A DNA stretch of 64,000 nt from Gammaproteobacteria bacterium (GTDB taxonomy: Bacteria > Pseudomonadota > Gammaproteobacteria > Pseudomonadales > Pseudohongiellaceae), in the NCBI GenBank assembly GCA_017853205.1, contig JAFMKB010000001.1, positions 1 to 64,000 of the forward strand, written 5' to 3'. A program made the position numbers and the translations under genes. The notes under the pieces were generated by a model, which was not told where the DNA came from, did no database searches, and was given only the letters and a program-made list of their open reading frames with translations. Of this stretch, positions 91-4,903 are shown piece after piece (position 1 is the first letter of the stretch; every line of letters begins with the position of its first letter).

Positions 91-1818
91 TTATGTTCTC
101 TCCGTCTTACTCAATATCATGTCTTTCATAGCCCCACCCTTGATAGCCATCGGGTACACGTGCTCTTCAGGATCAACCATGACGTCAACGAAAACGAGTT
201 TATCTTTCAGTGCGAATGCTTGTTCGAGCTTCGCGTCGAGCTCGCCTAAGTTTTCAATTCGAATACCAACATGGCCATACGCCTCGGCTAGCTTCACGAA
301 ATCAGGCAGCGATTCAGCGTAGGTGCTATGTGAATAGCGCCCACCATATTGCATATCCTGCCACTGACGCACCATGCCTAGGGACTGGTTATTCAGGCAG
401 ATTATTTTCACCGGCAAGTTATATTGCATGCAGGTAGCAAACTCCTGCAGGTTCATTTGAAAACTACCCTCACCTGTGATGCACACCGAAACCGCCTCTG
501 GGAAAGCCAACTGCACCCCCATGGCTGCGGGAAAACCAAAACCCATGGTGCCGAGCCCGCCCGAATTGATCCAGCGCCTTGGTTTATCAAAGCCGTAATA
601 TTGGGCCGCAAACATTTGGTGCTGACCCACATCTGTTGAGATATAAGCATCCCCCTTTGTAATGCGATGAAGCGCTTGAACCACCTGCTGCGGTTTTATA
701 ATGCCGTTAGTATGCGGCGTCACGCCAAGCGAGTCTTTCTCGCGCCACTTCGCGATTTGCTGCCACCACGTCTCCAATGCCTCGGCGTCAATCGCTTGCT
801 GCGACTGCTCGAGACATTCCAGCATTTCTTCGAGCACAGCTGTTACAGAGCCCACTATGGGAACGTCTGCCGCAACAGTCTTTGAAATCGACGCAGGATC
901 GATATCAACGTGCAGAATGGTTGCATCAGGACAAAATTTACTCGTATCTGAGTTGGTCACTCGATCGTCAAACCTCACGCCAATGCCTAGCAGAACATCA
1001 CAGTAATGCATTGCCATATTGGCTTCATAGGTCCCGTGCATCCCGAGCATCCCCAAGAATTGGGGATCAGACGCGGGATAGGCACCTAAGCCCATTAGCG
1101 TATTTGTGATCGGATAACCGAGCTTCTGCGTGAGTTTAGTCAGCAGTTCCGCTCCCTCCCCCTGAATAACACCGCCGCCGGCATAGATCATGGGGCGCTT
1201 TGCGCCAAGCAACGCCTCGACCGCTTTTTTAATCTGCCCACTGTGTCCTTTTCCTGGCACAGTATAGGAGCGCATCTTAATATCCTTCGGATACTCGTAG
1301 GGATGCTTAATTTTAGGGTCTGTCACGTCTTTGGGAATATCAATCACGACGGGACCCGGACGACCTGTCGTCGCTATGTGAAACGCTTTCTTCACGATCA
1401 TAGGAATATCAGCGGGGTCTTCGACCATAAAGCTGTGCTTCACGATAGGACGCGAAATACCCACCATGTCAGTTTCTTGAAAGCCGTCGGTACCAATGAG
1501 TCGACTTTCAACTTGTCCTGACAGGATAACCATCGGAATCGAATCCATGTAGGCGGTCGCAATACCAGTCACGGCATTGGTCGCTCCCGGACCTGAGGTC
1601 ACGAGAACCACTCCCGGCTTGCCTGTCGCTCGCGCATAGCCATCAGCGGCATGCGTTGCTGCCTGCTCATGACGAACAAGAATGTGCTCGATTTTATCTT
1701 GCTTGAAAAGCGCGTCGTAAATATGGAGTACCGCGCCACCAGGATAGCCGAAAATAAGGTCTACACCCTCGTCGTGTAGCGCACGAGTCAGCATGTCGCC
1801 ACCGGATAGTTGTTCCAC
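91..1818 (-). CDS. ilvI: Acetolactate synthase (AHAS III) large catalytic subunit
   Basis: A thiamine-diphosphate enzyme that condenses two pyruvates to acetolactate, or pyruvate with 2-ketobutyrate, as the first common step of valine, leucine and isoleucine synthesis. At 575 aa it is full length. The GYPGGAV motif lies near residue 24, the catalytic glutamate is in RHEQAA (E51), TSGPGATN is near 74, and the cofactor and metal end is marked by GGLGTMGFG and GEGSFQMN. As I recall, GEGS in place of GDGS also occurs in Pseudomonas IlvI. The start is GTG at 1816-1818, preceded by AAGAGG about 9 bases upstream; an ATG eight codons later is a weaker choice. It is followed at once by ilvH, which settles ilvI over ilvB or ilvG. 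The long structured leader upstream suggests regulation after transcription starts. Confidence 0.96.
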
Positions 1819-1944
1819 TTGAATCGCCTCTTAATTTTCTTCTGCACTATTGCAGTCGTTTAGTTAACGCTCGATTAGTTCGCGCTGATCACCCATCTAA
1901 TTCTGCTCATTACCCTTGAGCCGGACAGTTAGCTTAGGAGACAG

Positions 1945-2037
1945 TCAGAGGACAATCTTTCTAACGCAATACTCTCCGCACGAGGCGAATGCACCGAAAT
2001 TAAAGGTTGGAGCGCGAGCACTCAGAGCACTAAGCAT
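1945..2037 (-). CDS. Possible ilv leader peptide, 30 codons
   Basis: An ATG at 2035-2037 opens a 30-codon frame that ends in the codons for V-R-K-I-V-L and then TGA at 1945-1947, about 125 bases before ilvI. Consecutive Ile, Val and Leu codons right before the stop are what an attenuation leader for this operon would need. The upstream GCGAGA is a poor ribosome site, however, and three such residues in a row can arise by chance. I see no GC-rich hairpin followed by a U-run between this frame and ilvI, so classical terminator-based attenuation is not evident. Confidence 0.25.
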   Translation of the reverse strand: MLSALSARAPTFNFGAFASCGEYCVRKIVL

Positions 2038-2238
2038 TCTCGCTATTTAGTCGGCCTCGTACGCGATAACGTGATAGAGACCTTAGGTGGCTGTGTTTAA
2101 CACCTAGGGGGTCGATCTGCAGCTTAGCCGGGTGTGGCAAGCAGATCGAGTCACTAGCCACAGGGTTTCGCCTGAAGCTACGACATAGAAGGTGAAGTCT
2201 GACACTTTGCTGGGGAAAGTCAAGGAGCACGCGGCTTT

Positions 2239-2270
2239 CAGGTGCGAGGCCTGCCTCGAGCCTGCACCTG
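2239..2270 (-). terminator. Hairpin just after clpB, possible terminator without a U-run
   Basis: Inverted repeat CAGGTGCgAGGC (2239-2250) and GCCTGCACCTG (2260-2270), an 11-bp GC-rich stem with one bulged base. It begins 14 bases after the clpB stop. No T-tract follows on either strand, so it may stabilise the clpB 3' end or belong to the ilv leader structure instead of acting as an intrinsic terminator. Confidence 0.35.
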
Positions 2271-2284
2271 ATTTATCAAATTAC

Positions 2285-4903
2285 TTAATGTACCGCCGCA
2301 GAGCCAAAACTAAGACCACCGGCGGGATTCGCTTCGACACTAATCACACTGCCCGGCGCGAATGATCCCTTCAGCACTTCTTGTGCTAGCGGGTTCTCGA
2401 TATGATTCTGAATAGCTCGTTTTAGCGGCCGCGCCCCGTAGACGGGGTCATAGCCAACCTCTGCCAGCCTGTCGAGTGCGGCATCAGACACCTCTAACAC
2501 CAGTTCTCGCTCACGCAATCTGTCGTTAAGTAGCTCGATCTGGATCTCTGCAATAGCACGGATCTGCCCAGCCTGAAGAGGATGAAAAACGACTGTCTCG
2601 TCTATTCGATTAACAAACTCTGGTGAGAAGTGTTTAACGACAACTTTTAGAACATTCTCTTTCACTGCTGCGTAAGCCTCGCTGTTGGTAGCGACGCCTG
2701 ACAGCGTACCGTACTGCATGGACTCTTGAATTAGGTCAGACCCGAGATTTGAGGTCATAACGATCACCGTATTTCGAAAATCGACCGTTCTCCCATGACC
2801 ATCAGTAAGCCGCCCATCGTCCATAACTTGCAGAAGAATATTGAACACGTCGGGGTGCGCTTTTTCGATTTCATCCAAAAGCAGCACAGAGTAAGGTCTG
2901 CGTCTCACCGCTTCTGTCAGATAGCCGCCCTCTTCGTAACCTACATAACCGGGAGGGGCACCGATAAGGCGCGCCACCGAATGACGCTCCATGAATTCGG
3001 ACATATCGATACGTACCATCGCCTCTTCTGTATCGAACAAGAACTCGGCCAACGCCTTGCACAACTCGGTTTTTCCGACACCTGTTGGGCCGAGAAAGAG
3101 GAACGAACCATTTGGCCGATTCGGATCTGAAAGACCCGAGCGCGAACGGCGCACGGCGTTCCCTACTGCCGATACCGCTTCGTTCTGCCCAATAACGCGC
3201 TCGTGCAATCCCTCTTCCATCTTTAGGAGCTTCTCACGATCACCTTCGAGCATTTTGCTCACAGGTATACCTGTTGCACGAGCAACCACCTCAGCAATTT
3301 CTTCGTCTGTCACACGACTACGCAGCAATTGTTTTTCCTGAGCTTCAGCTGATGTTGCAGAAGCGAGTTTTGCTTCTAATGCAGGTATCACACCGTATTG
3401 TATTTCTGACATTCGACCGAGATCTCCAGCTCTCCGAGCATGCTCCATGTCGCTGCGCGCCTGCTCGAGTGAGCTTTTAATACTCTGCACTCCCTGTACT
3501 GATGCTTTCTCCGCTTTCCAAATTTCCTCGAGATCAGAAAATTCACGCTCCAACTCATCGATCGACTCGGCAAGCTTTTGCTTCCGAATCTGAGTCGCGG
3601 GCTCCTCGTCCTTCTTAAGCGCCTCGCGTTCGATTTTTAGTTGAATTAAACGCCTTTCGAGCCTATCCATTTCCTCGGGTTTCGAGTCGATCTCCATGCG
3701 AATAAGGCTTGCCGCCTCGTCAATCAGATCGATCGCTTTATCAGGCAACTGGCGATCAGTAATGTAACGCTGCGACAATTTAGTCGCGGCGATTATTGCA
3801 CCATCAGAAATCGCAACCCCATGGTGAACCTCATAGCGCTCCTTGAGACCGCGCAGTATCGCGATTGTGTCTTCCTCGGTCGGCTCATCCACCAGAACCT
3901 TCTGAAAGCGACGCTCTAATGCGGCATCTTTCTCGATGTACTGCCGATATTCATCGAGGGTGGTCGCACCAACGCAGTGTAATTCCCCGCGAGCAAGCGC
4001 CGGCTTGAGCATATTGCCCGCATCCATCGCGCCCTCACCTTTACCCGCGCCAACCATAGTGTGCAGCTCATCGATGAACAAAATAACACTACCCTCAAGC
4101 TTGGCTATTTCTGCTAAAACAGACTTTAGCCGCTCTTCAAATTCACCACGAAATTTCGCGCCCGCGATGAGAGCACCCATATCTAAAGAGAGAATTTTCT
4201 TGTCCTTCAGACCTTCCGGCACTTCACCGTTAACAATACGCTGAGCTAGCCCTTCAACAATCGCAGTTTTACCCACGCCTGGTTCACCGATAAGTACGGG
4301 GTTGTTCTTAGTTCGACGCTGCAACACTTGAACGGTACGTCTGATCTCAGCGTCGCGGCCGATAACAGGATCCAGCTTACCCTCCGCCGCACGAGCAGTG
4401 AGATCCAAGCAAAATTTTGAAAGCGCCTGCCAGCTGTCTTCGGCATTAGACCCATCAACACTCGCACCACCGCGGAGATTTTCAGCTGCGGTCTCCAGTG
4501 CCTGGGCGGAGACGCCGAAGCCATTGAGTAACTTGCCTAAAGCACCGGTATCACGCATGGCCGCAAGTAATACCAGTTCGCTAGAGACGAAGCTGTCTTG
4601 CTTCGCTTGTGCAAGCTTATCTGCCTGATTGAGCAGTTTTGACAATTCTGGCGACACGCTCACTTCACCGCCATTATCAGCCACGCGCGGCAAGTCATCG
4701 ATAAGTCGCGACAACCCTGTCTGAAGTTGATTCAAATTAAAGCCCGTCTGAGACAGCAAAGGCCGCACAGAACCATCTCGCTGCTCAACAAGTGCGTACA
4801 ACAAATGTGCCGGCGCGATCATATTGTTCTCTTTACCAAGCGCTATCGACTGCGCATCAGCAAGAGCCGATTGCAATTTACTTGTTAGTTTATCCATTCG
4901 CAT
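2285..4903 (-). CDS. clpB: ATP-dependent disaggregase ClpB
   Basis: Hexameric AAA+ chaperone that works with DnaK to pull polypeptides out of aggregates in the cytoplasm. At 872 aa it is slightly longer than the 857 aa of E. coli. It has the Clp N-domain (about 1-145), first AAA+ domain with Walker A GEPGVGKT near 206 and Walker B ILFIDELH, a coiled-coil middle domain (about 400-530, with many E/K/R), and second AAA+ domain with GPTGVGKT near 610 and the pore loop GYVGYEEGG. The start MRMDKL matches the usual MRxDRL opening, and AGAGGA sits 7 bases before it. It follows pgeF and rluD as in E. coli. A possible heat-shock promoter lies in the 124-bp gap upstream. Confidence 0.97.

Follow-up and report, generated by a model that had tools for sequence, protein, structure and literature searches.

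Does the long gap upstream of ilvI encode a regulatory RNA and, if so, of what kind? With AHAS, cells take the first committed step towards branched-chain amino acids (BCAAs), and the leader RNAs that have evolved at its gene differ from one bacterium to another. In the stretch of gammaproteobacterial DNA analysed here (64,000 nucleotides, hereafter the window), clpB and ilvI both lie on the minus strand and are separated by exactly 466 bp (1819–2284), the size given in an earlier sequence-only reading, which had proposed for this gap a structured ilvIH leader with mutually exclusive stems and an Ile-Val-Leu leader peptide.

91–1818, minus strand: ilvI, acetolactate synthase large subunit, GTG start (NF005058, 1053 bits, over the cut-off)
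1826–1831, minus strand: Shine-Dalgarno sequence AGAGGC of ilvI, complementary in the window to the 5′ strand of hairpin P4
1819–2046, minus strand: variable part of the leader, a possible expression platform
2285–4903, minus strand: clpB, the upstream neighbour, with its stop at 2285 (TIGR03346, 1390 bits, over the cut-off)

A search of the 84 genus genomes located ilvI in 72, and 70 loci from these (G074 and G085 were left out) make up our leader set. A clpB stop lies upstream of ilvI in 66 of the 70, and ilvH follows in all 22 named relatives with enough sequence; in 12 more the sequence ends too early. When 58 genomes, among them the window's own, were searched at the DNA level, 17 matched; leaving its own aside, 14 match a block inside the gap (window ~2146–2036) and the other two the ilvI start only. 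The alignment of the 70 leaders shows two conserved blocks with variable sequence between them: a promoter block followed by an RNA core, and the ilvI start region with AGAGGC and GTG. By eye, AGAGGC precedes ilvI in 54 of 58 leaders. The GTG start itself (window 1816–1818) is widely kept, in 61 of 70 genus loci and in all 10 order leaders displayed.

The first block comprises the following elements.

2218–2223, minus strand: putative -35 element TTGACT of an ilvI promoter; CTTGAC is conserved at >90% in the 70-leader alignment
2196–2204, minus strand: putative extended -10 element TGT-CAGACT, a conserved block directly 5′ of P1; relatives mostly have TGGCAGAAT
2047–2184, minus strand: conserved structured RNA core, 138 nt, four hairpins (row 1 of alignment A2)
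2151–2184, minus strand: P1 hairpin, 2184–2171 with 2164–2151 (helices 1 and 2; 12 of 13 pairs changed on both sides)
2112–2149, minus strand: P2 stem, 2149–2141 with 2120–2112, and inner P2a, GCC/GGC, 2138–2136 with 2129–2127
2084–2106, minus strand: P3 hairpin, UAGGUG/CACCUA, 2106–2101 with 2089–2084 (helix 5; 91.1% of cells paired)
2053–2082, minus strand: P4 hairpin, GGUCUC (2082–2077) with GAGGCC (2058–2053) (helices 6–8)

In the leader alignment the promoter block reads CTTGACTTT, a 16-nt spacer and TGGCAGAAT. The -10 hexamer of the window is a weak match to the consensus, and the promoter rests on conservation and position because a consensus scan of 1700–2400 found none. These features point to a dedicated ilvI promoter inside the clpB–ilvI gap, at 2223–2196 of the minus strand, with transcription probably starting near 2189. 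Between clpB and this putative promoter, at 2239–2271 on the minus strand, lies a strong G+C-rich hairpin without a T-run, perhaps the end of the clpB transcript; being upstream of the promoter, it would be outside the leader transcript.

The structure of the core was derived by comparing leaders. A core could be parsed in 65 of the 70 (all but L035, L038, L079, L086 and L091), and alignment A2 holds 38 of these after removal of 16 near-duplicates (>88% alike), two leaders with N's (L077, L081), the divergent L073 and L076 (9.5 and 11.8 bits with covariance model R1 of the core, which has 142 positions) and seven leaders from a subclade that has diverged (L080, L083, L085, L087–L090), where R1 scores at chance level. 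The four-hairpin structure is the RIBOSUM consensus fold of A2 minus two poorly kept pairs. Across the 38 leaders, 28 of its 38 pairs are changed on both sides, against 16.0 ± 2.1 after shuffling (0 of 500 shuffles as high), and double-changed cells number 141 against 44.1 ± 6.8; since the leaders are related, these counts are not of independent events. In the four-hairpin model 87.7% of cells pair, compared with 79.0% when the 3′ letters are redealt and 35–42% when the strands are slid, a control that favours the structure because it was derived from the same alignment. The compensatory changes suggested as a check on the structured leader were thus found, and that part of the sequence-only reading is well borne out. 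Judged from this comparison, the gap contains a real, conserved, structured RNA.

P2 and P2a (helices 3 and 4) have 10 of 11 pairs changed on both sides; P2 is a perfect 9-bp stem in the window, and its pair count is lowered because the window's clade is slightly mis-registered there in A2. P4 has an additional apical pairing, ACGU/GCGU (2072–2069 with 2064–2061), contains the near-invariant AUCACGUUAUCGCG and carries in its loop the tandem UAUCACGU-UAUCGCGU, a short direct repeat. In the sister genus its stem is kept with other bases, for example GGUUCC/GGAACC versus GGCUUC/GAAGCC. Near-invariant unpaired bases occupy the P2a, P3 and P4 loops and a GAC after P4; in the P3 loop, columns 107, 109, 110 and 112–114 are the same in at least 35 of 38 leaders. 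The window's clade departs from the consensus at a few loop bases, the window itself at columns 109 and 113 of the P3 loop.

Other folding approaches recover the structure in part or in full. The default consensus fold of A2 contains parts of P1, P2 and P4 (21 pairs, 16 with a double change) and lacks P3 and P2a. One free fold of the window RNA shows P1–P4; with other ends P2 and P4 stay and P3 is lost. The single-sequence folding energy of the window is only slightly better than chance (z -1.78; 5 of 100 shuffles did as well). Of the covarying column pairs, the two strongest belong to the structure, and the rest mix structure pairs with apparent shared ancestry; a pseudoknot search among the covarying columns revealed no consistent tertiary helix.

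The inverted repeats that first drew attention to the gap are present, at 82% (2104–2120/2141–2157), 76% (2073–2089/2101–2117) and 83% (2239–2250/2253–2264). Of the two stems said to exclude each other, the one at 2081–2108 is essentially P3, extended outward by three CCU/AGG pairs that form in 78 of 114 cells and overlap the first bases of P4. Conservation is lacking for the alternative at 2087–2161, whose six pairs in the window are formed in 59 of 227 cells (26%), below the 35–42% of the slid controls.

The RNA has a narrow distribution and a single genomic position. In the window's genome R1 finds its own match (101.8 bits, E 6.1e-25) and a next best at E 1.78, that is, one recognisable copy. 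At E<=1 R1 matches 60 of 84 genus genomes, all but one of these also at E<=1e-10; of the 59 strong matches, 57 are found shortly before ilvI on its contig and two (G011, G074) on another contig. In the larger samples, searched with stricter filters that lose weak matches, R1 matched 12 of 293 order genomes at E<=0.01, nine of them in the window's family and all nine upstream of ilvI, and in 274 class genomes only the window's own copy. All six sister-genus matches are upstream of ilvI, and a third genus of the family, represented by three genomes, gave none. Three weak order-wide matches (22–25 bits, three other families) were taken as chance; their loci gave no ilvI hit. A scan of named genomes with the RNA pattern alone returned 34 loci, and in all 34 ilvI lies 147–194 nt downstream on the same strand. 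These are all metagenome-assembled genomes labelled Gammaproteobacteria, Proteobacteria or narrower, including Pseudohongiella sp., OM182 bacterium MED-G28 and one labelled SAR86 cluster. The names indicate Pseudohongiellaceae as the probable family of the window.

In one divergent subclade of the genus the promoter is retained without a recognisable copy of the RNA, R1 finding nothing above chance at the leader. There (L080, L083, L085–L090) the leader has changed, and another codon stands in the alignment where ilvI otherwise starts with GTG. P3- and P4-like hairpins with other bases seem, by eye, to persist in this subclade.

The region after the core is far less uniform. A terminator-like hairpin was found in 32 of 58 post-core regions (58 of the 65 leaders were used) against 32 of 174 shuffles, and 22 of the 32 sit 44–69 nt before ilvI. 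The hairpin is absent from the other 26, the window's included, in agreement with the earlier remark that no U-run terminator is visible: on the minus strand of the leader there is none, one such element lying inside ilvI and one on the other strand only. A further hairpin, P5, closed by GACA/UGUC, is present in many relatives, by eye in 24 of 39 folds, and is not recognisable in the window. In the window, the 5′ strand of P4 can pair either with its 3′ strand or with the ilvI Shine-Dalgarno sequence (a run of 6). Among 57 of the 65 leaders, the P4 5′ strand and the Shine-Dalgarno sequence share a complementary run of at least 6 in 27 and lack it in 30; of 2569 other windows in these leaders, 175 have one. 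In the sister genus two of six leaders have it. General sequestration of the Shine-Dalgarno sequence by P4 was therefore rejected, the run being enriched yet not conserved. We regard the sensor part as firm, but not the output part; the output may differ between lineages, or the true partner may have been missed.

We then asked whether the RNA belongs to a known class. The whole window gave no Rfam match at gathering thresholds, catalogued riboswitches including T-box and ppGpp among them, and 1500–2600 none at E<=5. The sole match in 20 relatives' loci, SMAD5-AS1_3, reached 18.5 bits against a cut-off of 60 and was taken as chance. The RNA is a family of the Pseudohongiella/OM182 lineage, a group seen chiefly in metagenomes, without representation in Rfam 15. 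A match to ilvB-OMG had been suggested as possible. This motif is in Rfam as RF02919 (gathering cut-off 95.9 bits); as a positive control, one of 20 order loci scanned, L156, scored 108.3 bits. RF02919 gave nothing over cut-off in 84 genus genomes (the best, at E 0.02, is not on the ilvI contig). Among 145 order genomes it gave six matches at E<=0.01: four strong (75–126 bits, three over cut-off), all in one family, f41, and two weak (18 and 22 bits) in other families. The window RNA lies upstream of the AHAS large-subunit gene, as ilvB-OMG does, and the two further share several hairpins, the order and, in three of the four strong RF02919 loci, the presence of clpB. That it is a divergent ilvB-OMG member, shifted beyond recognition, is nevertheless very improbable, since RF02919 is absent from 1500–2600 of the window at E<=5 and from the 20 relatives' loci at E<=10, and R1 scores at best 7.1 bits in the four RF02919 loci. 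PMC10272879 interprets ilvB-OMG as a uORF with abundant BCAA and Thr codons; in the window RNA no BCAA-rich uORF was found by a test that counted only BCAA codons and is weak for mild richness. By covariance model and host family, ilvB-OMG and the window RNA are two distinct RNAs, found at the same gene in separate families of the order.

A ribosome-mediated attenuator, in which stalling on a translated Ile/Val/Leu leader peptide selects between alternative stems, would suit the gene. Restriction to a single gene and a single position also fits, being one reason why PMC10272879 favours a uORF for ilvB-II. A few leaders do have BCAA-rich frames: L050 and L055 reach 7 of 8 codons, a value matched by 1 of 20 shuffles in each case, and L049 and L061 reach 6 of 8, matched by none of 20. 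Several results speak against it. The 30-codon frame at 1945–2037 proposed as leader peptide exists in the window, but it lies in the variable leader and is not conserved: L023 and L024 have 25 and 35 aa with other ends, and its start was not found in L025 and L026. Over 65 leaders, counting any ATG, GTG or TTG frame, the best 8-codon window holds 4.03 BCAA codons against 3.94 in shuffles, whereas the same measure detects E. coli ivbL (7 of 8 codons against 4.0; none of 40 shuffles equals it). Through P3–P4 no frame is kept, because the 55 leaders tested (of the 65; the divergent ones and one with N's, ten in all, were left out) spread 10/30/15 over the three offsets, which are open in 35/35/27. 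An intrinsic terminator before the gene, also expected of such an attenuator, is lacking in the window, and the terminator-like hairpin is found in 32 of 58 leaders. The codon test is weak for mildly rich peptides, as the four ilvB-OMG leaders (L194–L197) score only 3–5 BCAA codons; their lack of enrichment means either that the published uORF reading of ilvB-OMG may deserve a second look or that the test is too weak. On balance we regard the attenuator as improbable. The sequence-only reading had named three findings that would speak against it: no Rfam hit and an unconserved frame, both of which were observed, and a lack of covariation, which is instead present. Its suggestion that the mechanism is translational, Rho-linked or that of a ligand-binding RNA remains compatible with the evidence.

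We consider it probable that the window RNA is no leader-peptide attenuator but a cis-acting sensor of ilvIH that works like a riboswitch or is bound by a protein. A riboswitch should have a conserved, covarying domain in the 5′ leader, and such a domain is found here, in a leader that is presumably transcribed. For the expression platform that a riboswitch also needs, the leaders offer two candidates, each present in only part of them: the terminator-like hairpin and the run between P4 and the Shine-Dalgarno sequence. The putative ilvI promoter would be followed at once by a structured leader RNA of ~138 nt, whose P1–P4 core would act as sensor domain for a small molecule or protein tied to BCAA status and, with no leader peptide involved, would set the expression of ilvIH in cis. 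How the signal is read out would depend on the lineage. Over half of the relatives have a terminator-like hairpin downstream of the core; because this is absent from the window, control there would act at ribosome access, through the choice of the P4 5′ strand between its 3′ strand and the Shine-Dalgarno sequence, or through Rho. Many riboswitch classes control several genes, and so the restriction to one gene and one bacterial family counts against a sensor.

Within this sensor reading, a new riboswitch class, its aptamer directly sensing a BCAA or a pathway intermediate such as a 2-oxo acid, is a tentative possibility. The candidate aptamer would lie between clpB and ilvI, the place taken by ilvB-OMG in another family of the order. 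If it does bind a BCAA or precursor, it would be, to our knowledge, the first aptamer for compounds of that pathway. A protein-bound leader, in which an RNA-binding regulator on P3/P4 controls ilvI translation or decay with no small-molecule ligand, is a branch of the same explanation, its share contained in that of the sensor, and we think it unlikely. The near-invariant loop bases, the short direct repeat in the P4 loop, the single target gene and the narrow distribution would fit such a site, but its four covarying helices exceed the needs of most. The core is short and suited to probing, and 38 diverse sequences give it a firm structure. Together with ilvB-OMG it makes two unrelated-looking RNAs that precede one and the same gene in different families of the order.

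The RNA can be compared with several known systems of BCAA genes. E. coli ilvIH is regulated by Lrp at the DNA level; its operon type is the same, ilvI then ilvH, but the upstream neighbour is leuO and not clpB. The E. coli ivbL (ilvBN) attenuator has in common with the window RNA that control of AHAS is exerted in cis in the leader; it differs in that ivbL encodes VVVVRVVVVV, and no such run was detected in the window RNA. The ilvB-II motif (C. glutamicum ilvBNC leader) is likewise narrow, single-copy and located at an AHAS gene. As described in PMC10272879, ilvB-II has two stems, with P2 terminator-like and U's behind it, and a BCAA-codon-rich uORF of usually 15–17 aa; two published ilvB leader motifs, at first considered riboswitch candidates, were later interpreted as uORFs. 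In contrast, the window RNA has four helices, no conserved frame through P3–P4 and no terminator. The ilvD motif of Veillonella, in PMC8632094 a 'weak riboswitch candidate' conserved in one genus with a possible terminator in some members, is, on a comparison of descriptions, also a one-genus BCAA-gene leader, at another gene and in another phylum. Comparable narrow ilv motifs occur in other phyla, and one was reassigned from riboswitch candidate to uORF according to PMC11109978 and PMC8632094, which calls for caution in reading the window RNA as a riboswitch. A literature search for a Pseudohongiella/OM182 riboswitch or an ilvI/ilvIH leader, covering few subscription journals, found nothing beyond PMC10272879; with the Rfam scans, this makes the RNA a candidate for an unpublished one.

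Leaders in other families of the order contain a different string, conserved and hairpin-like. A pattern scan found it, roughly CACAYGACCUGUGUUGCGAG, upstream of ilvI in 7 of 45 loci (L148, L153, L154, L155, L163, L165 and L177), four of which (L154, L155, L163, L165) are from one family; L148, L153, L154 and L155 gave no Rfam match. This string is possibly a further undescribed ilvI leader element.
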